In this document: piece by piece, positions 1,122 to 17,326 of the stretch
Numbering within the stretch: the first letter of the stretch is position 1
Layout: every line of letters begins with the position of its first letter
Assembly: GCA_003557485.1 (NCBI GenBank)
Contig: PWOI01000084.1
Coordinates: forward strand, 1 to 17,326
Origin: Elusimicrobiota bacterium
GTDB taxonomy: Bacteria; CG03; SLGR01; PWQF01
Direction of reading: 5' to 3'
DNA: 17,326 nucleotides
Program-made: the position numbers and the translations under genes
Notes under the pieces: model-generated
What the model saw: only the letters and a program-made list of their open reading frames with translations
The model's database searches: none
What the model was told of the DNA's origin: nothing

Positions 1122-2960
1122 TTATCTCCTCTCCCTTAACCTGTTTAATTCTTCTTCCAGGGAACTTATATTAATTTCTGTGTCCCTGTATGTAGTTATT
1201 ATACGTTCAAGAACCTGTATTCGCACGTCGTCGCCGGCACCGGCCTCGACAATCCTGTTGTAATAGTTAACAGCGCTCTCAAACTCCCTTTGACTTACTA
1301 TATCGGGAACCGGCTCGGCTTCGCTTATTCCCAGATACTCTAGAAGTTCTTTATCGTTAGGATCAATTTCAAGGGCTCTTTCCCATATCTCCGTAGCTTT
1401 TTGCCTGTTGCCCATTCCGAAGTACGCACTTCCCATACGTTTTAAAGCAAGCACATTGTCGGGTTCAAGGTCAAGGACTTCTTCACAGAGAGAGACAGCC
1501 CTTACCCATCTCCTTTCATATATCGCCTCAAGAATTTCCTGAAGCCTCTGTTCAACAAGATTGAGTCCGGGAATGAGTTTTTCCTCTGAGGCCCGCTGTG
1601 AAAACTTTCTTTCTATTACGCTGCGCAACTGCTGGAGACTGACATCATCCGGCCAGAGCTGGGAAGCATACCTTATTCTATTTAAAGCCTCTCTCCCGCG
1701 CCCGTCAAAATAGGCTCTTACTGCCCGGGCTACCAGAGAAGTTTTCTTATCCCTTTCAACAACGGAGTCATATATGTTAACTACCGGACCCAGATCGCCA
1801 AGCAGGTTTTCCGCGGCTCGATTGTCACCCCATATATTTTTTGCTTGCTCTAATGTTCTAAAAGCTTCTACGAAATTTCCCCTATCAATCATTTCTTCAG
1901 CTTCCGATGTCAAATCACGGGAGCGACGAATATCCGCTTCACTAATAACCCGCGGAGCAACCTCGTCAGGAAGCTCATCGAGAACCACTGCTTCTATAAC
2001 TTCAGGCTCCGGTTCCGGCACGTATTTATCACCAAAATAAAACGCGGCGTTAATTTTATGTGTACCCAATGTTCCGACAATCCCTGTCAATGGATATAAA
2101 AATGAATAATCAATGTTGTAACGGCCAATAGAGTAACTTACCCCCAGACTTGCTGTTCTATACTGCCTTGATCCAAGCCCAAGCCCTCCTCTTGCAAGAA
2201 AACTGCTATTTAATACCCTGTGCTCTGCTCCTATTGAAAAAGTGGTGTCTCCTCCCCCGTATTCAAGCTGCATTCCTATATTGCCGTGAGGAAGAGATAG
2301 ATTAGTGCCTCCCTTCACATAACGGGGAACCCTGTTTTCATGTTTGAGCCCTATATCGGGGCTGTTTATATTATAAACACCAAATCCGAACGCAAAAGTA
2401 TCCAGCAAATTATATATTATACCTAAATCAGCGGAAAATGCAGTACTTCCGTACCCTGAAGAAAAAACAGGGTTTATCTTTGTGTATTCATCTTCACCGT
2501 AACCTACAGATAAAATCTTAAGTCCAATACCGGCTCTCAGAGAATCAGTTACCCTTGCGCCGTACCCCATGACAAATGCGTCCTCCCTGTAAAGACCGGC
2601 CGCACTCAGCCTTGACCAACCGACACCTGCTCCCTCTTCATCAAGAAAATCTATCCCGCTGCTGAAGGGGTATACAGCTGTTATAAGGCTTTTAGTAAGG
2701 CTACCGTCATCCAACCCCATAAAAAGGCCGCCGTATCCGGTAAGAAGTTCAGGTATAGAAATATTTGAAAGACCTGCCGGGTTATGAAAAACAGCAGACG
2801 CATCATCAGCAAGTGCTACATAAGATCCCCCCATCCCTTCCTCCCTTGCCGCCCGGCCGCTGTATTCAAACGCGCCATCCGCAAAAGAAACTAACACCGT
2901 GACTGCAAAAGAAACCGCCAAAAATATTTTCCTTTTAAATACCGGTTTTGTAATACTCAT
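1122..2960 (-). CDS. PorV/PorQ-like outer-membrane barrel fused to TPR domain
   Basis: This 612-residue protein starts with a signal peptide (about residues 1-29). Residues 30-310 resemble the PorV/PorQ (UPF0164) family of FadL-like outer-membrane barrels: the opening motif 'GMGGSYVALADDASAVFHNP' is characteristic, followed by alternating aromatic and glycine-rich strands ending in 'INAAFYFGDKY'. A Pro/Glu-rich linker (about 314-335) leads to a helical C-terminal half with TPR-type repeats, clearest around 'ALALKRMGSAYFGMGNRQKA'-like sequence near residue 505-540. I choose ATG at 2960 because the GTG at 2969 lies inside its Shine-Dalgarno. In Bacteroidota, PorV carries type IX secretion cargo; here the gene sits directly after two FlgD-Ig proteins, which could be its clients. 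That role is inferred. The TPR part probably lies in the periplasm and binds a partner. Confidence 0.85.
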   Translation of the reverse strand: MSITKPVFKRKIFLAVSFAVTVLVSFADGAFEYSGRAAREEGMGGSYVALADDASAVFHNPAGLSNISIPELLTGYGGLFMGLDDGSLTKSLITAVYPFSSGIDFLDEEGAGVGWSRLSAAGLYREDAFVMGYGARVTDSLRAGIGLKILSVGYGEDEYTKINPVFSSGYGSTAFSADLGIIYNLLDTFAFGFGVYNINSPDIGLKHENRVPRYVKGGTNLSLPHGNIGMQLEYGGGDTTFSIGAEHRVLNSSFLARGGLGLGSRQYRTASLGVSYSIGRYNIDYSFLYPLTGIVGTLGTHKINAAFYFGDKYVPEPEPEVIEAVVLDELPDEVAPRVISEADIRRSRDLTSEAEEMIDRGNFVEAFRTLEQAKNIWGDNRAAENLLGDLGPVVNIYDSVVERDKKTSLVARAVRAYFDGRGREALNRIRYASQLWPDDVSLQQLRSVIERKFSQRASEEKLIPGLNLVEQRLQEILEAIYERRWVRAVSLCEEVLDLEPDNVLALKRMGSAYFGMGNRQKATEIWERALEIDPNDKELLEYLGISEAEPVPDIVSQREFESAVNYYNRIVEAGAGDDVRIQVLERIITTYRDTEINISSLEEELNRLRERR

Positions 2961-2966
2961 ATTTTT

Positions 2967-2972
2967 CACCTC
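2967..2972 (-). promoter_or_regulatory. Ribosome binding site of the PorV-TPR gene
   Basis: GAGGTG on the minus strand, 6 nt before ATG 2960. The alternative GTG start at 2969 is the last part of this element, so the ATG is the better start. Confidence 0.6.
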
Positions 2973-6576: not shown

Positions 6577-7137
6577 CTAGTCGGACAACCCTTTTATCCT
6601 GACAGTTATGGTCTGCTGCTGCGTATGGCCAACACTTGTGGGCATTTCAAGATTGAACCACAGGTTCTCACTCGCACCGGATTCTCCCGTCGGAGCCAGC
6701 ACCAGCTGATCATCAGATTCATCGGTCAGGTCGTTATATTCTTCCTTGGTTGTGATGAATACAGCAGAAGAGCCTACCACATCCCAGTTATCCGGCACGC
6801 TTGCCTGGGCAACAGCACTTAACCTGAATACGTTATTTCCCGGGGTACCCATTGTCCACGGATCTCCTGCGCTGGTTATGTCCCAGACTGTTTTTTCAAA
6901 CTTGAGATCCACGTTGCCCTGGTTGGCTATTGTAAGGGCAGTAACATTACCGGTGGACTCCCCGACATCCACATTGCCCAGACTAATCAGATCCGGCGAT
7001 ATCGTGAAATTAGCAGTCACAACCGGGGTAACTGTTATAGTGACATTCTGCGTTGATGACTGAATCTCTGCAGCCGCACGGCCTGCAGCAAAAACAAGCA
7101 TAGCCGCGACCATAACCAGTAGTTTCTTTCTCAGCAT
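6577..7137 (-). CDS. Small secreted beta-sandwich protein
   Basis: I start at ATG 7135-7137, giving 186 residues, because an AGGAGGA ribosome site sits 6 nt upstream and a signal peptide begins at once (residues 1-23, cleavage near GRAAA-EI). An in-frame ATG 30 codons earlier would put a charged segment before the signal. The mature protein is a beta domain with 'TISPDLISLGNVDVG', 'IANQGNVDLKFEKTVWDIT', a 'PGNNVFRLSAVAQ' stretch and the closing 'NLWFNLEMPTSV...QQTITVRI'. The same ordered motifs make up the last 155 residues of the preceding 597-residue protein, so the two are paralogous modules. The next gene, 10 nt away, is chaperone-like. This might be a polymerising or surface-coat subunit, analogous to the pairing of WxL and DUF916 proteins, but that is a guess. 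Confidence 0.8.
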   Translation of the reverse strand: MLRKKLLVMVAAMLVFAAGRAAAEIQSSTQNVTITVTPVVTANFTISPDLISLGNVDVGESTGNVTALTIANQGNVDLKFEKTVWDITSAGDPWTMGTPGNNVFRLSAVAQASVPDNWDVVGSSAVFITTKEEYNDLTDESDDQLVLAPTGESGASENLWFNLEMPTSVGHTQQQTITVRIKGLSD

Positions 7138-7143
7138 AAAGCT

Positions 7144-7150
7144 TCCTCCT
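7144..7150 (-). promoter_or_regulatory. Ribosome binding site of the small beta-sandwich gene
   Basis: AGGAGGA on the minus strand, 6 nt before ATG 7137. It fixes the start and discards the 30-codon upstream extension. Confidence 0.7.
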
Positions 7151-7245
7151 TCAAACAATTTCTTCCCAATAACCTCACCTTGACCTTTTTCAAACCCTGA
7201 AACTCTTCCAGTCCTCCTTTCAGGCATTCACAACAACACATATTT

Positions 7246-9157: not shown

Positions 9158-9727
9158 CTAAGTACGCTCTAAAAGATTTTTAATTTTTTCTTTAAATTCT
9201 TTCAAAACAAGTGGTTTTCTTATGAAATCATCTGCGCCGGCCTGAAGTATTTTCTGGCGGTTCTCTTCCTTGTAGTAACCGGTCATTGCGAGAACTTTTA
9301 TCTCATCGCCAAGTTCCTTGCGTATCTGACTGCAGACATCAAAACCGCTTATACCGGGAAGCATAATGTCAAGAATTACAAGGTCTGGGCCGAATGAATG
9401 AATTTTGCTGCCGGCAGAAAAACCGTCTTCGGCGATATCCATTTTAATATCAAATTCAAAATCTTTGAGAACCGCTGTAATAAACTCCATTACATCCTCG
9501 TCATCTTCAACCACCAATATTCTTGGCACACCCGGAGTGGAAGAAATACCCCTCTCAGGTATCTCGTTCTCATGTAAAAAGATTTTCAGATGTTTGGCTC
9601 CGATTCTGTTATGGCCGCCCGGAGTTTTAAAAGATTTCAACAAACCCGATTTTATCCAGTTGTTTACGGTAGCATGCGTAACACCTGTTATCTCTGCTAC
9701 TTCCTGGGTTGTATAGTGATTTTTCAT
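9158..9727 (-). CDS. Response regulator with N-terminal MerR/excisionase-type HTH
   Basis: A 189-residue cytoplasmic regulator with an unusual order. Residues 3-45 are a MerR/excisionase-like helix-turn-helix ('YTTQEVAEITGVTHATVNNW' followed by the wing 'TPGGHNRI'). A short linker leads to a receiver domain at about 68-188: acidic pocket E74-D75-D76, phosphoacceptor D120 in 'LVILDIMLPG', T149 in 'AMTG' and K171 in 'IRKP', all in place. It should therefore be phosphorylated, presumably by the histidine kinase encoded 72 nt upstream on the same strand. Its promoter candidate (9749-9777) lies in that gap, and GAAGGA 9-10 nt before ATG 9727 is the ribosome site. Targets unknown; the surface cluster just downstream is the nearest candidate. 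Confidence 0.88.
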   Translation of the reverse strand: MKNHYTTQEVAEITGVTHATVNNWIKSGLLKSFKTPGGHNRIGAKHLKIFLHENEIPERGISSTPGVPRILVVEDDEDVMEFITAVLKDFEFDIKMDIAEDGFSAGSKIHSFGPDLVILDIMLPGISGFDVCSQIRKELGDEIKVLAMTGYYKEENRQKILQAGADDFIRKPLVLKEFKEKIKNLLERT

Positions 9728-9799: not shown

Positions 9800-11260
9800 T
9801 TATATTTGGTTTATTAGATTGGAAGGAATATAAACAGAAACGGTTGCCCCCCTACCCGTACCACTGCTTGATATTTCAATCAGGCCATTATGGTTCTTCA
9901 TTATGCGGTAGGAAATAGAGAGCCCGAGCCCGGTCCCCTGCCCTATATCTTTAGTAGTATAGAATGGCTCAAAAGCGCGAGAGGCAGCTTCTTCAGTCAG
10001 ACCGGTTCCGGTATCTGTAAACTCGGTCAGAAGATAATCCCTGTTCTCCCGTTTGGTTCTTGATACTTTTATGGTAATCCGGCCTCCGTCAGGCATTGCC
10101 TGCATAGAATTCTGTATTATGTTTAAAAAAACCTGCTGGAGATTACGCGCAGATGCAGTAACACGCAAATCTTTAGAGACATATTGCTTTGTTATTTTTA
10201 TCCCTTTGGAAACTGCCTCGGTCTGACAAAGGATAAGAGTTTCATTAATTATATCTCTAAGATCGTGTACTTTAAAATCGAATTTTTCTTTTCTGGAAAA
10301 ATCCAGAAGCCCCGACACAATTGCGCGGCATCTTAAGGCAGCCCTCTCCATCTTTTTTACGGTCTGGTACAGAGGGTTCTCTTCGGGAATTTTCTGAAGG
10401 ATTAACTGGGAATGTCCGAGTATTCCTGTAAGCGGATTATTAATCTCATGGGCAACGCCTCCGGAAAGCTCACCTACCGCTGCCATTTTACCCATCTGAG
10501 TTATCTTTAACTGATACTCTTTCAGGTCCTGTATCATCCTATTAAAGGAATCTGATATTTTCCTGAACTCACTTTTTGTTTTCAGTTTAAGGCGATGATC
10601 AAGATTTCCTTTCCCAACGGCATCCGTAGCCTGCTCCAATTTCTTAAGAGGTGTCACAACAGCCCTGTAAAGGCTGTACCCCATAATCGAAACAAAAACA
10701 AGCACGAGAAAAAAGAATATTATAAAAAAAGTTGCCAAGCGCATCTGGAAAGAAACCGCAGTATTATGTGAAACTCTTACTCTTTCATCAACAAGAAGAA
10801 TCCCTTCACTTAAAAAAGCCCTTATTCCTTCTAATTTACCGGGAAGAACCTCGTCCGCAAGCCGGACAGCATCTACCCTGCGGCCCGTTTCTGCAAGGTC
10901 AACAACCTCGCCGGCGCTTAACTCAAATTCCCCGAGCAGGGTCCTGAGTTCAGCAAGGAAACCGGCAAACAACCCGAATTCATTCATTTTATCAAGCATA
11001 TCTGTTAATTCGCGTCTTTTATCGCGAAAATTATGTATTTCACTTTTCTGAGACAGATATACATAGTAGTCAAGGGCCTGGACTTTCTCTACAAATACTC
11101 TTTTAGATTCCCCAAGGTTCTCGCGGAATTGAACATAACTCCTGGCGTTGGTGAAATACTCCGCCTGCTGGCGGTTAAGATAAATAGTAGTAATGCCAAG
11201 GACGACAATGGAAGAAACAAAAACAGTAAAGATAAGTATTATTCGCAGTTTAATAGACAT
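9800..11260 (-). CDS. HAMP-domain sensor histidine kinase
   Basis: A 486-residue membrane kinase. Transmembrane helix 1 is at about 7-28, a helical periplasmic sensor at about 30-170, helix 2 at about 174-198, and a HAMP linker at about 199-252 ('VVTPLKKLEQATDAVGKGNL'). The H-box 'GELSGGVAHEINNPLTGI' gives phospho-acceptor His271. The ATPase domain has an N-box 'NIIQNSMQAMPDGG', G1 'DTGTGL' near 416-421, F-box 'FEPFYTTKDIGQGTGLGLSI' and a final 'GRGATVSVYIP'. All catalytic motifs are intact. The periplasmic part is all-helical with no recognised ligand-binding fold. The gene follows the sigma factor by 41 nt and precedes the response regulator, its likely partner. The signal sensed is unknown. 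Confidence 0.9.
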   Translation of the reverse strand: MSIKLRIILIFTVFVSSIVVLGITTIYLNRQQAEYFTNARSYVQFRENLGESKRVFVEKVQALDYYVYLSQKSEIHNFRDKRRELTDMLDKMNEFGLFAGFLAELRTLLGEFELSAGEVVDLAETGRRVDAVRLADEVLPGKLEGIRAFLSEGILLVDERVRVSHNTAVSFQMRLATFFIIFFFLVLVFVSIMGYSLYRAVVTPLKKLEQATDAVGKGNLDHRLKLKTKSEFRKISDSFNRMIQDLKEYQLKITQMGKMAAVGELSGGVAHEINNPLTGILGHSQLILQKIPEENPLYQTVKKMERAALRCRAIVSGLLDFSRKEKFDFKVHDLRDIINETLILCQTEAVSKGIKITKQYVSKDLRVTASARNLQQVFLNIIQNSMQAMPDGGRITIKVSRTKRENRDYLLTEFTDTGTGLTEEAASRAFEPFYTTKDIGQGTGLGLSISYRIMKNHNGLIEISSSGTGRGATVSVYIPSNLINQI

Positions 11261-11301: not shown

Positions 11302-12147
11302 TTATGCAGGCTCCGGGTTTTTTTTATTCAGGTTAAACTTTAGTTTTCTTATGGCAACATCCTGAATATCACGAACTTTATATGCTGAAAGACCCATTTC
11401 TTTACCTATTTCGTCGTAGGTATGAATTCCTTTATCATCCAGACCGAATCTCATAGTTATAATTTTCTTTTCCCGTTCATCAAGAACAGAAAACATGTTT
11501 TCAATTTGTTTTCTGATACTTATTTTATCCAGCAGCTCCTCGAAAAAAGATTCGTCATTGCCTTCTATGAAATCTTTAAGCGTGCGAGCATCATCATTAT
11601 CCATATAGAAATCTAGGGATTTTACATATTTCATCCTCTTCACAGACATAAGAACATCAACTATTTCAGATATGGACTTATCTATTTTTTCCGCTACTTC
11701 ACCGTAATCGGGAACCGAACCGGATTCTCTGAGAAGACGGGAAGTTGCCTCCTCAATTTTTTTAAGGTCCCGGAGTTTCTTTTCTGGTATGGGTATAACA
11801 CTTCTTGCGCTTAATATTGATTCCTGAAAATGTTTCTCAATCCACCAGGATGCGTAATGTGAAAACTTGCACCCTTTGTCCGGATCAAATTTTTCAACCG
11901 CCTTTATGAGACCAATATTGCCTTCTTCAATGAAATTAAGGAAATCCATTCCTATTGATGGGTAATAATATTTTTTTGCGAGAGTAATTACAAGTGGAAG
12001 GTTTACTTCAATCAGTCTAAGACGGGCCTCTTTTGCCTTTTTACCCTTCCCCTTGGATTTACGGAATAAATCAACTTCTTCCTTTTCAGCAAGAGGTTCA
12101 ATTTCATGGATCTGTCTTATATAAATTTTTAATGCTGATTCGGACAC
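11302..12147 (-). CDS. Alternative sigma-70-family sigma factor (group 2/3-like)
   Basis: A 281-residue sigma factor starting with GTG at 12145-12147, with GAGGAG 4 nt upstream. Regions visible: 1.2 (residues 4-30), 2 at about 40-115 ('FIEEGNIGLIKAVEKFDPDK', then 'YASWWIEKHF'), 3 at about 120-175, and 4 at about 215-272 ('VLDEREKKIITMRFGL', HTH 'TYDEIGKEMGLSAYKVRDI'). There is no long region 1.1, so it is not the housekeeping sigma. Contacts differ from housekeeping sigma-70: at the positions of E. coli Q437 and T440 it has Lys105 and Gln108, and at R584 and E585 it has Ala and Tyr (R588 is retained). It should direct polymerase to other promoters. It sits in a regulatory run with the kinase and response regulator. 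Confidence 0.9.
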   Translation of the reverse strand: MSESALKIYIRQIHEIEPLAEKEEVDLFRKSKGKGKKAKEARLRLIEVNLPLVITLAKKYYYPSIGMDFLNFIEEGNIGLIKAVEKFDPDKGCKFSHYASWWIEKHFQESILSARSVIPIPEKKLRDLKKIEEATSRLLRESGSVPDYGEVAEKIDKSISEIVDVLMSVKRMKYVKSLDFYMDNDDARTLKDFIEGNDESFFEELLDKISIRKQIENMFSVLDEREKKIITMRFGLDDKGIHTYDEIGKEMGLSAYKVRDIQDVAIRKLKFNLNKKNPEPA

Positions 12148-12628: not shown

Positions 12629-13276
12629 TCAGACTTCACTTCTTTTAATCCTTATTTCAATTCTTCTGTTCTTCTCCCTGTTCTCAGGGGTATCGTTGGG
12701 CGCAACCGGCCTATACTCGCCGAATCCAACAGGGATAAATCTCCTGCCTGCTATAGTCTCAACAATTGTAAAATAGTGAATAATGCTGAACGCCCTCTCA
12801 AGGGAGAGTTCCCAGTTGGAAGAGTAAGGCGATGCGGAAGAAAGCGGCACATTGTCAGTATGCCCTTCAATTACAACCTGATTTGGTATATTTCTTATTA
12901 TGCCGGCAAGTTTTTCAAGAAATGGCAGAGCCGACGGCTTAACTTCAGCCCGGCCTGAATCAAAAGCCAGCGGCTCGGCAAAAACAACCCTTATATCCGC
13001 TTTATCAACCTTCACCTCGGCAAACCTTCTTATTCCGCTGTCCTCTATAAAAACGTTAAGCAGATGAGCCATATTCTCCTCTTCCCTGCGAATTCCAAGT
13101 TTATCAAGCCTTCTGGTATCCGGAGTCCCGCCGACTTCAGCCTGAAGCACATTAATTACACTTTCAAACTGCTCCTCATCCGCATAATGGGAAAACACAT
13201 ATAGAAGCATAAAGAAGACAAGAAATATTGTCATCAGATTGGAATATGTCAAAAGCCAGCTTTTCTCGCTGTTCAT
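12629..13276 (-). CDS. MotB-like protein with Asn in place of the ion-binding Asp
   Basis: A 215-residue MotB-family protein. The N-terminal helix is 'WLLTYSNLMTIFLVFFMLLY' (about 7-26). Canonical MotB has Asp at the position occupied by Asn13 (codon AAT at 13238-13240), and there is no other acidic residue within the helix. A linker of about 60 residues leads to an OmpA-like peptidoglycan-binding domain at about 95-210: 'VVIEGHTDNVPL', 'NWELSLERA', 'FGEYRPVAPN', 'NRRIEI'. The start overlaps the previous motB stop by 4 nt (ATGA), so synthesis is probably coupled one-to-one. Alone, this form should not conduct protons, as the equivalent D32N change inactivates E. coli MotB. It most likely pairs with the neighbouring MotB as a heterodimer or acts as a structural anchor. 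Confidence 0.88.
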   Translation of the reverse strand: MNSEKSWLLTYSNLMTIFLVFFMLLYVFSHYADEEQFESVINVLQAEVGGTPDTRRLDKLGIRREEENMAHLLNVFIEDSGIRRFAEVKVDKADIRVVFAEPLAFDSGRAEVKPSALPFLEKLAGIIRNIPNQVVIEGHTDNVPLSSASPYSSNWELSLERAFSIIHYFTIVETIAGRRFIPVGFGEYRPVAPNDTPENREKNRRIEIRIKRSEV

Positions 13277-13902
13277 AATCTGACAATGGAAATTTCCACC
13301 CTCCGGTTCATAGCTCTTCCCTCTTCAGTTTCGTTTGAAAACACAGGACGATACTCCCCGTGCCCTATCGCGCTTAGCCTTTCAGGGTCTATACCGCTTC
13401 TTTCCATATAACCCAGCACGCTTAAGGCACGGGCCCCTGAAAGTTCCCAGTTGGAAAAAAAACGCCGGCTGCGCGTTATAGGTATGTTGTCTGTATGACC
13501 CTCTATAATTATGTCATTTGGTAAATCACGGACAATATCAATAATTTCATCAAGAACAGGATATCCTTCCGGCATAAGCCTGTCATCTCCGGGTTGGAAA
13601 GTAATTCCCTCACGCAAAACAATCCTTATTGTTTTCTCATCGATGTCGACCATAACAAACTCTTCAAGTTTCTGGTCGGTCATCATCTCTTCTATCCTCC
13701 GCCCGGCTTCAACCTCAATGGCAATTGCCGTACCGGGCGCGCCGGACATTGTCTCCTGCAGATTTCTCAACAGGCCCTCCTGTTCCTCGTGGGTAACCCG
13801 TGTAGAGGAGTAAAGAACAAGAAAAAAGAGGACCATATTTGTAACAAAATCAGAGTAAACGGTCAGCCAGAGGCCGCCGCCTCTTCTATTTCTTCCGGGC
13901 AT
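13273..13902 (-). CDS. motB: MotB-like stator protein with intact ion-binding Asp
   Basis: A 209-residue MotB-family protein. The single N-terminal helix is 'WLTVYSDFVTNMVLFFLVLY' (about 12-31), with Asp18 in the position of E. coli MotB Asp32, the ion-carrying residue. A linker containing the putative plug (about 35-90) precedes an OmpA-like domain at about 95-209 with 'IIIEGHTDNIPI', 'NWELSGARA', 'GEYRPVFSN' and 'NRRVEI', which should bind peptidoglycan. It starts immediately after the motA stop (TAA-ATG) and overlaps the second motB by 4 nt. With MotA it should form a five-to-two stator that converts ion flow into movement of the FliG-like partner encoded upstream. Symbol given by family only; the system is not flagellar as far as can be seen. 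Confidence 0.92.
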   Translation of the reverse strand: MPGRNRRGGGLWLTVYSDFVTNMVLFFLVLYSSTRVTHEEQEGLLRNLQETMSGAPGTAIAIEVEAGRRIEEMMTDQKLEEFVMVDIDEKTIRIVLREGITFQPGDDRLMPEGYPVLDEIIDIVRDLPNDIIIEGHTDNIPITRSRRFFSNWELSGARALSVLGYMERSGIDPERLSAIGHGEYRPVFSNETEEGRAMNRRVEISIVRL

Positions 13903-14658
13903 TTATTTCATAGACCTGTACTGCTGGGAAAGGAAAAGTTCAAGTTTTCTCTCTATCATATAAACCCCCTCCCCTTTTTGTATTGCAAGGAGCCCTTCGC
14001 AGGCAATTTTTTTTGCAAGGCCTTCCTGGTCAGAGTAAGCATGAAGTTTATTTAAGACAGGAATAAAAATGAAATTAGCCGCAAATATTCCGTAAAACGT
14101 AGTCGTTATGGCTATAGACATTGACGTTCCTATAACCTCCGGGTTTGTAAGGTTTCTCATAACCTGTATAACCCCTATAAGAGTCCCGAGAAGGCCAAAT
14201 ATAGGGGAATAGGTACCCATTGTCCTAAATACATTAGCATACTGCTTGTGTCTCTCTGAGGTAAATTCAATCTCCTTATTAAGATTGTCCCTTATCTCAT
14301 CAGACGAGATATTCTCAAGTATCATCTGAATTCCGCTGTTTATAAAATCATCCTGCGTATTTTCTTCACTTAGCGAAGCGACTCCTCCCGCTTTAACAGA
14401 CCTCGCCAGCCTGAGAACTTCATTTATAACATAACGCGCCTTTGATACCCTGGGAGGAAAAAAAACAAGAAAAACCAGCTTAGGTATTTTTTTTACAACA
14501 TTGAAGGGATAACTTATAAGAGTTGACCCGAAAGTTCCCCCGAAAACCAGGATCAGAGACATCGGATTGTACAACAAACCCAAAATCTCACCTTCAAGCA
14601 TAACAAGGTATACAGCTCCTAACCCCATACCCAACCCCAAAATAGTCATCAAATCCAT
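13903..14658 (-). CDS. motA: MotA-like stator channel protein
   Basis: A 251-residue four-helix protein: helices at about 5-24, 33-51, 147-168 and 179-203, with a large cytoplasmic loop between helices 2 and 3 and a cytoplasmic C-tail. The signature 'YSPIFGLLGTLIGVIQVM' contains Pro152 (matching E. coli Pro173), and 'AITTTFYGIFAANFIFIPVL' contains Pro200 (matching Pro222). The loop is rich in charged residues, as needed to contact FliG. Length and topology are those of ordinary MotA/PomA, unlike ZorA (long cytoplasmic tail) or ExbB/TolQ. GAGGT lies 5 nt before the ATG. It follows the FliF/FliG-like gene by 26 nt and abuts motB. It should form the pentamer around the MotB dimer in the inner membrane. 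Confidence 0.93.
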   Translation of the reverse strand: MDLMTILGLGMGLGAVYLVMLEGEILGLLYNPMSLILVFGGTFGSTLISYPFNVVKKIPKLVFLVFFPPRVSKARYVINEVLRLARSVKAGGVASLSEENTQDDFINSGIQMILENISSDEIRDNLNKEIEFTSERHKQYANVFRTMGTYSPIFGLLGTLIGVIQVMRNLTNPEVIGTSMSIAITTTFYGIFAANFIFIPVLNKLHAYSDQEGLAKKIACEGLLAIQKGEGVYMIERKLELFLSQQYRSMK

Positions 14659-14684
14659 TTTTTACCTCTTTTTCTGCTTTCTAT

Positions 14685-15992
14685 TCAGATATTAGCATTT
14701 ATCCCGTAAGCATTTTTAATTAATTCCTTACGGGCAAGCGCGACCTCTTTCTCATCAATTTCAGGCAGGTAGGAAAGCTCTTCTTCTATCATTCTTGACA
14801 TACCTGCCGGAAGTTTCTTCTTAAGGCCGGCAAGGGCTTCCTTATCCTGCCCTTTTAAGGCCCGGGCAACAATAGCAACTCCGGATTTCCTAACCACGGG
14901 AATAAGTGCTGCTGAATCAAATCCGAGTATATCTTCAAATGAAATCATGCTGCTTTTAAGTTTTTCAGCCAGGGCAGGGTTGACTTCAGCAGTGGCCGCA
15001 ACCATTTTTTCCTGCTCATCCGAATCAATATCTCTGAAGATCCTAAGAACGCTTTCCTCACCCCCTACAACATTTTCAACCTTAGCACGAAGCCTTTTTT
15101 CAGTTTCAGATATTTTCTCCGGCGGAAGGAAGTTTACTTTACTCATAAAACGAACTGTTTCCCATTTTTTATTACCAGGGAGCCTTGATAGCAGCCATGA
15201 TAAATATTCATCCGGAAGATGCTCGCATAATATTGCAGTTGCTTCCACGGGTTCATTTTCAAGGACATGAAGCATTCTACTGAGGTTTCCGCTATTCACA
15301 AATGAAAAATATTTAGACTCCCGGCTTTCTGTGATTTTTTTAACTGTTCCAGATTCCGGGCCACCGATATCTAAAGCGTTTCTTCCCTGTATTGAAGTAA
15401 TTGCTATCTGTCTTTTAGCCTGCTTTAAATAACTACCGACAGGGCCAAGCAGAAAAACAAATGCAAGAAGCAAACCGGATATCCGGTAGGTTTGAGGGTT
15501 TTCAAGTAAGGCATATAAATCTATACCCGAAGAAGCGGCGAGAGTATTTTCAATATTGAGAACATCTCCTCGATCATAGTCAAGATGCAGTAATTCTGTA
15601 AGGAAAGTCCGAACAGCGGGTATCTCTTCTTCAGGAAAATCTTCAGGAAGATAGAGTTTAACTATCATCCGCCTCAAAAAATAGCGCATCGCCGGAGCCT
15701 CTCTGGCCGACATTACTTCCTCGGCTACCGGAACCCCGGGAAGAACAAACCTTCTCTCGGCTTCCTGCTCCATCTCGCCGACGCTCAAAAACGGGACAGC
15801 GTCTATGCGTATAATAACTTCCGAAACCCCGAACCTTTTTTTGAAAAGCTCCTCCGCACGGCTTCGAAGTTCATTTTCAAGGGCAATCCGTTCCCTGCCA
15901 AGTTCAACAAGAAGAGAACTTTCGGCATATCCGCATGCAATACCGGCAAAAAGCACAACTAAAACCATTACCCTTTTAAAATATAAAATCAT
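14685..15992 (-). CDS. Membrane-anchored FliF-C/FliG fusion, putative rotor protein
   Basis: I start at ATG 15990-15992 (435 residues), because AAGGAG lies 9 nt upstream and a hydrophobic leader (about 1-23) begins there; a longer start at 16079 would overlap the TolC-like gene and put 29 polar residues first. Residues 24-150 resemble the last periplasmic ring-building domain of FliF: 'MIVKLYLPEDFP', 'AVRTFLTELL', and 'LDYDRGDVLNIEN' (RGD 141-143). A transmembrane helix lies at about 170-188. The cytoplasmic part matches FliG middle domain (about 235-320, 'LENEPVEATAILCEHLPDE' and the Gly-Gly hinge 310-311, 'VGGEESVLRIFRDID') and C-terminal domain (about 350-430, 'FEDILGFDSAALIPVVRKSG', 'ARALKG', 'IEEELSYL', 'IDEKEVALARKELI'). 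The FliG N-domain and FliF cytoplasmic tail, which normally bind each other, are absent, as expected for a fusion. Next to motA and two motB, it is the likely torque receiver. No known family name fits. Confidence 0.82.
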   Translation of the reverse strand: MILYFKRVMVLVVLFAGIACGYAESSLLVELGRERIALENELRSRAEELFKKRFGVSEVIIRIDAVPFLSVGEMEQEAERRFVLPGVPVAEEVMSAREAPAMRYFLRRMIVKLYLPEDFPEEEIPAVRTFLTELLHLDYDRGDVLNIENTLAASSGIDLYALLENPQTYRISGLLLAFVFLLGPVGSYLKQAKRQIAITSIQGRNALDIGGPESGTVKKITESRESKYFSFVNSGNLSRMLHVLENEPVEATAILCEHLPDEYLSWLLSRLPGNKKWETVRFMSKVNFLPPEKISETEKRLRAKVENVVGGEESVLRIFRDIDSDEQEKMVAATAEVNPALAEKLKSSMISFEDILGFDSAALIPVVRKSGVAIVARALKGQDKEALAGLKKKLPAGMSRMIEEELSYLPEIDEKEVALARKELIKNAYGINANI

Positions 15993-16001
15993 TAAACTTA
16001 T

Positions 16002-16007
16002 CTCCTT
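16002..16007 (-). promoter_or_regulatory. Ribosome binding site of the FliF/FliG-like gene
   Basis: AAGGAG 9 nt before ATG 15992; it decides this start over the ATG at 16079. Confidence 0.65.
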
Positions 16008-16041
16008 CAATTCTTTTCCAGATGACACTTTTTGAGAGATT

Positions 16042-17326
16042 CTACCGTAGAATTTCCACGGGCATAATCTGTTTTCCACACGCTCTGTTTAGGGCAGCTG
16101 ATGCGGCGTAAAACTTATAAATATTTTCGTATAGAGAGTTTTCAACCTGAACGACATTATTGCGGGCTTCCATTACATCTTTAAGAGAAGCCTGACCAAG
16201 AAGTCTGTTTTTATCAATAATTTCCACCCGGCGTTTTTCCACATCAAGTCTTTTTCTTGTATTATTAACAAGATCCATGGTTCTGTGAAGAATCCTGAGG
16301 TTATTTTCAACTTCTCTTTCTATCTGTTTCACAGTATTCTCTAAATCCATTTCTGACTGCATTCTTACAACTTCCTTCTCTTTTTCGGAATGAACCCGCT
16401 CAAGGCCGTCAAGAAGAGAAAATTGCGCTACATGCTCCCGGCTCTGAATTCTCTGTGAAGCGTCAATTATTGCTGCCGATGGGTCGCTCACCCTATCCCC
16501 CCCGTACCTGTAAGAAAAAGTATTACCCCAGAAACCCCACCTTAAATTTAAAAATACTGACCACTGATCCACAAGAAGCAGGTCCCTGTCAACAAAAGCC
16601 TCTCCGCTTCTCCCGTAAAAACCTTCAAGAGTAAGTGCGGGATAGTTTGCCGCCCCGGCTACCCGTTCATCGTATTCGGATTGGCTGACTACTAAACGGG
16701 CTATCTTCATTTCCGGCCGGTTTTCAAAAGCGATTCGCAGGCAATCCTCAAGCCGGTACGCAACAAGAGACGGAGAAAAAACCAGGTCCAGTTCCCTTTC
16801 CCCAACTTCGAGTTCAGGATCGCTGCATACAATCCTTAAGTCCATAAGCGCTATGGCCAGTTCATCCGCAGCAATATCTTTCTGTATCCTGATACTTTCT
16901 TTGAGATTTGAAATATCCTCGTAATCAATTTCAGTTTTTATCTCTCTTTCGCGCTGACGGCGTGCAATTTCATAATCCCGTTCTAACTCAGAAATGAGAC
17001 TCTCATAGTTGGAAAGAATATTCCTGTGCATCAGAACTTTATAGTAAGCATCGGCGACCTCATTTTCTATTTCAGCAAGTATGCGCTGATGCGAGGCTTC
17101 GGCCACCTGAACACCTTTCCTTTCCCTGCGGTAACCGAAATAACGGCCGCCTCCCTGAAAAACAGCCTGCTCAAACCTTACACCGTAACTCTCGGCCCGG
17201 TAGGGGTCATCAAAAGTCTCCCCCTCTGAGCTTCTGTATTCAAGCACCAGAAAAGGCCCCAGAAACCTGGTTGCGTTCACAAGCCGCATCCTGGCCAGGT
17301 TTACCTGCTCCAGGGATATATTTATA
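16042..17326 (-). CDS. TolC-family outer-membrane channel protein, N-terminus cut by window edge
   Basis: The frame stays open to the right edge; upstream of Met 17289 it reads 'INISLEQVNLAR', the usual start of the TolC repeat, so that Met is internal. About 428 residues are visible; a signal peptide and some 30-60 residues are missing. The protein shows the duplicated TolC/OEP layout: long heptad-rich helices at about 65-150 and 290-395, beta strands between ('YGVRFEQAVFQGG', 'WSVFLNLRWGFWGN'), and the typical end 'YKFYAASAALNRACGKQI'. It should form a trimeric outer-membrane and periplasmic tunnel. The FliF/FliG-like gene follows after 49 nt, then motA and motB genes, so it may be the outer part of the same machine. 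No periplasmic adaptor or pump gene is in view, though one could lie beyond the edge. Confidence 0.88.
   Translation of the reverse strand, partial: INISLEQVNLARMRLVNATRFLGPFLVLEYRSSEGETFDDPYRAESYGVRFEQAVFQGGGRYFGYRRERKGVQVAEASHQRILAEIENEVADAYYKVLMHRNILSNYESLISELERDYEIARRQREREIKTEIDYEDISNLKESIRIQKDIAADELAIALMDLRIVCSDPELEVGERELDLVFSPSLVAYRLEDCLRIAFENRPEMKIARLVVSQSEYDERVAGAANYPALTLEGFYGRSGEAFVDRDLLLVDQWSVFLNLRWGFWGNTFSYRYGGDRVSDPSAAIIDASQRIQSREHVAQFSLLDGLERVHSEKEKEVVRMQSEMDLENTVKQIEREVENNLRILHRTMDLVNNTRKRLDVEKRRVEIIDKNRLLGQASLKDVMEARNNVVQVENSLYENIYKFYAASAALNRACGKQIMPVEILR

Follow-up and report, generated by a model that had tools for sequence, protein, structure and literature searches.

A recurring FliF/FliG fusion with MotA and two MotB proteins in Elusimicrobiota: a probable minimal rotary motor outside the flagellum

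The window analysed here is the whole 17,326-base contig PWOI01000084.1 (C165). It comes from an uncultured, apparently non-flagellated Elusimicrobiota bacterium, whose draft genome has 2.07 Mb and a completeness of 86.6%. In the initial annotation five consecutive same-strand genes, encoding TolC, a FliF/FliG fusion, MotA, MotB and a MotB-like protein, were described as a compact non-flagellar motor locus. All five are present on the minus strand where they had been placed. The motor set itself was found to comprise four of them, 12629-15992 on the minus strand, and is formed by the FliF/FliG fusion (referred to below as the rotor), MotA and two MotB proteins. The features of the set are the following:

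14685..15992, minus strand: rotor gene, encoding a signal peptide or first transmembrane helix (TM), FliF RBM3, TM2, and FliG_M and FliG_C (Pfam, hhalign, AlphaFold (AF2) model)
15534..15923, minus strand: RBM3-like periplasmic domain with an LPGVP motif at a short beta-collar insertion (model compared with 8z5v_A)
14688..15314, minus strand: FliG middle and C-terminal (torque) domains (Pfam, alignment, model)
13903..14658, minus strand: MotA, flagellar-type stator ring subunit of PomA-like size and fold (Pfam MotA_ExbB and MotA_N, model)
13273..13902, minus strand: MotB1, TM helix with Asp18 (GAT, 13851-13849) and OmpA peptidoglycan-binding domain (Pfam, alignment)
12629..13276, minus strand: MotB2, a paralog with Asn13 (AAT, 13240-13238) and OmpA domain (Pfam, alignment)

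The rotor has 435 amino acids when read from the ATG at 15992, and its open reading frame (ORF) extends back to a GTG at 16079. The ATG, which lies behind the Shine-Dalgarno-like AAGGAGAT, is the likely start; the TolC stop precedes it by 49 nt. MotA begins 26 nt past the rotor stop, MotB1 follows directly behind MotA, and MotB2 and MotB1 overlap by four bases (ATGA). Promoter and terminator scans gave no clearly informative result. Pfam matches above the curated cut-offs were obtained for OEP (5e-32), FliG_C (3e-12), FliG_M (6e-6) and MotA_ExbB (2e-27), and OmpA and MotB_plug domains were matched above the cut-offs in both MotB genes.

No Pfam match was obtained for the FliF half of the rotor. 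In a profile-profile comparison (hhalign), this N-terminal half was aligned over RBM3 with flagellar FliF at 98.5% probability and an E value of 2.7e-15, the aligned region corresponding to residues ~229-433 of E. coli FliF. In a profile search of PDB sequences FliF was matched (2e-5 at best), and the SpoIIIAG ring was matched weakly (0.009). The AF2 model of the rotor is monomeric (pLDDT 74.6, pTM 0.36), and the relative placement of its domains is unreliable. Residues 53-182 of the model were superimposed on FliF RBM3 (8z5v_A) with a Z of 12.0 and a root-mean-square deviation (rmsd) of 2.2 over 99 residues. The Z values of the FliG part were 11.6 with FliG_M and 12.5 with FliG_C from a MotAB-bound structure, the latter with an rmsd of 1.7 over 85 residues. 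The LPGV sequence was invariant in 13 rotors of the same kind. The proposed fusion was thus upheld for FliG_M, FliG_C and RBM3, but RBM1 and RBM2 are missing, as is the N-terminal domain of FliG: the protein is too short for RBM1-2, and its FliG part is joined directly. Of the RBM1-RBM2-RBM3 arrangement with two TMs that characterizes flagellar FliF, only RBM3 and TM2 were detected.

The model of MotA (251 amino acids) matched the sodium-driven PomA (8brd_C) over its whole length, with a Z of 25.6 and an rmsd of 2.7 over 249 residues. The Z values with PomA and MotA structures were 20-26, compared with about 10 for ExbB/TolQ (ExbB, 10.4) and 7.4 for ZorA. The reported hallmarks of flagellar stators are the torque-generating domain, the square fold and the OmpA domain (PMC12505986). 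As the whole-length match to PomA is far above those to ExbB/TolQ and ZorA, MotA is a flagellar-type A subunit by these hallmarks; its torque domain and square fold are accompanied by MotB proteins with OmpA domains.

The last gene, initially annotated as MotB-like, is a second true MotB in which the ion-binding aspartate is replaced by asparagine. The residue corresponding to E. coli D32 was kept in all 15 MotB1 sequences and in 6/6 MotB of the second locus kind described below (type I). In contrast, none of 12 MotB2 sequences had Asp at this site; the residues were Asn in six, Thr in five and Ser in one. In the MotB tree, MotB1 and MotB2 formed two sister clades (SH-aLRT 96 and 86), which points to one old duplication. 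At L181:1501-3729 in G049, a genome with an ordinary FliG, MotA likewise precedes a pair of MotB genes. The ion site is occupied by Ser in the first of them and by Asp in the second; apparently, a MotB partner without the Asp arose independently here.

Two locus kinds recur in the phylum. Type II, that of the window, has the order rotor-MotA-MotB1-MotB2. Type I consists of a PorV porin with TPR repeats, a FliF/FliG/TPR rotor (~640-740 amino acids), a long coiled-coil protein, MotA and MotB; it is more widespread than type II and is also present in the genome of the window, on contig C84. A contig scan with the type-I rotor gave nine true relatives, the remaining matches being TPR-only chance hits. 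Fourteen type-II copies were found in 10 of 16 phylum genomes, with up to two copies per genome. The number of type-II rotors equalled that of the matching MotA genes in all 16 genomes (14 and 14; 12 pairs adjacent), and none of 200,000 shuffles reached this agreement, although related genomes are not independent. In the MotA tree, the type-II and type-I proteins formed clades of their own (SH-aLRT 97 and 99, respectively). Relatives therefore do not keep the FliF/FliG gene without mot genes; had they done so, this would have spoken against the initially proposed motor. In G009 and G011 a rotor only seemed to be without a stator, since the corresponding MotA-MotB1-kinase-receiver-MotB2 set is on a different contig. 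In G012 the type-II rotor gene (L050:3282-4648) is divided between two ORFs, owing either to a frameshift or to faulty assembly. Outside the phylum, type-II sets were detected in two families, one comprising G223 and G353 and the other represented by G082; G353 also has type I, and G058 has a more distant fusion.

The export gene FlhA was absent from all 16 phylum genomes, with positive controls in four flagellated genomes, and FliM/FliN domains were likewise absent from the 16, again with positive controls. FlhA was also absent from G223, G353, G082 and G058. These searches rule out the alternative that the set belongs to a full flagellar operon just beyond the edge of the window. The initial statement that hook, rod, filament and export genes are missing holds for export as far as FlhA is concerned; hook, rod and flagellin or filament genes were not searched for by name, and none was seen in the loci read. 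Together with the pairing of rotors and MotA genes, the absence of FlhA and FliM/N from the phylum bears out the description of the locus as a compact non-flagellar rotor and stator set.

In E. coli, MotA R90 contacts FliG D288-D289, and MotA E98 contacts FliG R281 (PMC12505986). The position of R281 was occupied by Arg in 24/24 sampled flagellar FliG proteins in addition to that of E. coli. In the rotors it was Gly, Ala or Glu in 16/16 type-II and Gly or Ala in 12/12 type-I sequences. The E98 position of MotA was acidic in 15/15 flagellar proteins, non-acidic in 15/15 type-II proteins and kept in 6/7 type-I proteins. At the D288/D289 positions the type-II rotors have Glu, with some Gln, and Lys or Arg was found at the R90 position in 12/15 type-II stators. 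In the rotor of the window, Gly replaces R281 and Glu is present at both D288 and D289. In type II, consequently, the R281/E98 contact is gone on both sides and the R90/D288-D289 contact is mostly kept, whereas in type I the loss is confined to the rotor side. As read from the alignments, the matched changes at the rotor-stator contact indicate co-evolution. The FliG motifs EHPQ, which binds FliM, and GPVR are lost in the rotors, in agreement with the absence of FliM/N from the phylum; the motor would accordingly lack a switch.

The commonest outer-membrane neighbours of the rotor loci are PorV/UPF0164-like porins, often with TPRs. A PorV-family porin is directly upstream of the type-I rotor wherever the upstream DNA is intact, and such porins adjoin most type-II loci; the type-I porin in the genome of the window belongs to the PorV family above the NCBIfam cut-off. 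SprA-like ORFs of about 1,700 amino acids were found in 15/16 phylum genomes (E values down to 6e-27), all of them partial and below the family cut-off, and the control genomes were silent. Very large proteins precede the type-I loci, one having a weak tail resembling those of the type IX secretion system (T9SS); weak T9SS-tail-like protein ends were noted in the window and beside a type-I locus. Kinase and receiver genes recur beside or inside the type-II loci. These neighbours would fit a motor that is under regulation and serves secretion or surface adhesins.

Taken together, the set is probably a minimal rotary motor of a non-flagellar kind; its stator would be heterodimeric and contain one aspartate, and the motor would drive an outer-membrane or surface load. 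In such a motor the FliF/FliG fusion would assemble into an inner-membrane ring, with RBM3 forming an S-ring-like ring in the periplasm, TM2 spanning the membrane and the attached FliG domains serving as cytoplasmic teeth in place of a FliM/FliN C-ring. A MotA ring would surround one MotB1 and one MotB2, whose two OmpA domains would tether the stator to peptidoglycan. Ions passing the lone Asp of MotB1 would rotate MotA, MotA would push the FliG teeth and the RBM3 ring would turn, transmitting torque to the periplasm and then to the load. With an Asn, Thr or Ser partner the stator would have one ion site instead of two; alternatively, MotB1 may form a normal homodimer and the MotB2 proteins may act as separate anchors. 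PorV- or type IX-like secretion, or the gliding-like movement of adhesins, is put forward as the load only tentatively, at somewhat below even chances. The more specific proposal is more doubtful still: a new class of ion-driven rotary motor that has an S-ring/FliG fusion as its rotor and, in its stator, an obligate MotB1-MotB2 heterodimer with a single aspartate, and that would drive type IX-like secretion or gliding by means of adhesins in a phylum devoid of flagella.

Several observations weigh against the proposed motor or its load. The rotor was modelled as a monomer with a pTM of only 0.36, and the outside locus in G082 has a single MotB beside its MotA. The PorV-like gene of the window itself is 10 kb away from the motor set and below the family cut-off. 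SprA is common, being found in 159/386 genomes, and outside the phylum it was present in 3/4 genomes with a rotor compared with 141/366 others, a difference that is not significant (p 0.30). A search for GldM gave no match in the 16 genomes, but the control genomes gave no match either.

Among the other explanations considered, a fixed platform is unlikely, though the least unlikely of them. The RBM3 ring would then hold the stators through FliG, and the force would reach the cell wall or outer membrane by way of the MotB pair, in the manner of AglRQS-like systems. The resemblance of the MotB pair to the AglQ/AglS pair, and the existence of AglRQS and GldLM as MotAB-like motors without flagellar-rotor output (PMC9389320, PMC13104615), are in favour of it, and the lost second contact could mean a weaker interface used for binding only. 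However, FliG_C and the first charge contact are retained, the flagellar torque domain is complete in MotA, and the peptidoglycan-binding OmpA domains of both MotB proteins would hold the stator still. It is improbable that the set is the leftover of a lost flagellum, retained by chance or for a minor role. Every part is homologous to a flagellar rotor or stator protein, but remnants of FlhA or FliM/N were found in none of the 16 genomes; two paralogous versions with MotA and MotB clades of their own are kept across the phylum and in outside families, up to two type-II copies per genome are accompanied by matching stators, and the changes at the contact are systematic and do not resemble decay.

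The other two explanations are very improbable. The TolC gene, counted in the initial annotation as a member of the set, ends only 49 nt before the rotor start on the same strand, and a transport or secretion motor that turns or gates this outer-membrane tunnel could be imagined. However, in G005 and G003 the ortholog is the last gene of an MFP-RND-RND-TolC efflux operon near which no motor gene lies, and G003 has the TolC ortholog but no type-II rotor. In relatives the order rotor-MotA-MotB1-MotB2 recurs, but a TolC of this family was present at no other rotor locus read. TolC was thus rejected as a part of the machine and is regarded as a chance neighbour, a TolC-linked motor being highly improbable. 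A Zorya-type phage defence, in which a MotAB-like motor triggers a cytoplasmic effector, is the least probable of all. The ZorB models of PADLOC match both MotB genes, which reflects the shared OmpA/MotB fold; MotA has no ZorA match and no long tail, PomA fits it far better, and no ZorC/D/E effector was present among the genes read. Zorya was rejected by the fold and size of MotA.

With the core of the flagellar motor (MotA5MotB2/PomA5PomB2) the set shares RBM3, TM2, FliG_M, FliG_C, a full-length MotA, and the plug and OmpA domain of MotB. It differs by the absence of RBM1, RBM2, FliM/FliN and FlhA, by the joining of FliF and FliG into one protein, by the loss of EHPQ, GPVR and R281 in FliG, and by the second MotB without the ion-binding Asp. 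AglRQS of Myxococcus gliding similarly has one MotA-like and two MotB-like genes and sensory regulation nearby. In contrast to MotB2, the Asp is retained in AglQ as well as in AglS (PMC9389320); AglRQS has no FliF or FliG, and its proteins fall into the TolQ/ExbB-like class (PMC12505986). A possible shared use with GldLM/PorLM and type IX secretion of Bacteroidota is suggested by PorV-family porins, candidate SprA-like translocon genes and giant proteins with T9SS-like tails. GldLM, though alike, is reported to be non-homologous to MotAB, pushes on the outer-membrane-associated GldJKN (PMC13104615) and lacks FliG. Two different axle or partner subunits per ring are also known from heterologous TolR-like or vWA pairs on TolQ-like motors (PMC12204202), but the vWA axle pairs retain the Asp as far as described, work with TolQ-like rings and are not accompanied by FliF/FliG. 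Zorya (ZorAB) has the same MotA/MotB-type 5:2 motor and OmpA-domain MotB, whereas the present set has no ZorA tail or effector genes and has a FliG rotor.

Engineered FliF-FliG fusions exist and were built on flagellar proteins (PMC11481574, PMC6079021). No description of a non-flagellar system that combines a natural FliF/FliG fusion with MotAB turned up in the open-access literature, preprints and most subscription journals being outside the scope of the search. The occurrence of rotor genes in the absence of filaments has been noted statistically but not explained (PMC12199754). A recurring rotor and stator module without FlhA or FliM/N would be a concrete case of the flagellar motor core put to other use, and it bears on the question of whether the flagellum was assembled from, or spawned, working sub-machines. 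It also calls into question the idea that MotAB stators of the flagellar type are restricted to flagella (PMC12505986). Since Asn resembles the ion-binding Asp in its protonated state (PMC9389320), the Asp-less MotB2 offers a natural test of stator models that rely on both aspartates (PMC10659934).

Further genes of the window that may be connected with the motor are given below; the membership of the three candidate control genes in the set is uncertain.

11302-12147, minus strand: sigma-70 factor, candidate control gene
9800-11260, minus strand: histidine kinase, candidate control gene
9158-9727, minus strand: regulator with MerR-type helix-turn-helix and receiver, candidate control gene
1122..2969, minus strand: PorV/PorQ-like porin with TPR repeats, possible outer-membrane partner (PorV_fam 7e-12, below cut-off; adjacency in relatives)

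A secreted protein at 6577-7227 of the window gave a weak Pfam match to archaeal flagellin (1e-4), below the cut-off, which is probably due to a shared beta-sandwich. MotB1 and MotB2 are separated by histidine kinase and receiver genes at L195:541-4693 and L196:255-4324. The type-I loci (L004:10499-14407) have, between the rotor and MotA, a coiled-coil protein of about 1300 amino acids; its N-terminus is rich in proline, it shows no clear signal peptide, and it is a candidate cytoplasmic linker or track. FliG-bearing relatives are also carried by the flagellated G137 and G274 beside their normal flagella. In G137, which has two FlhA genes, L098:2-9957 contains two adjacent FliG-like ORFs, MotA, MotB and a 2019-amino-acid Ig-like protein. 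In G274, also with two FlhA, FliG_M and FliG_C form the ends of TPR proteins of about 900 amino acids beside PorV-like porins (L096:9640-12300 and L097:7750-10485).

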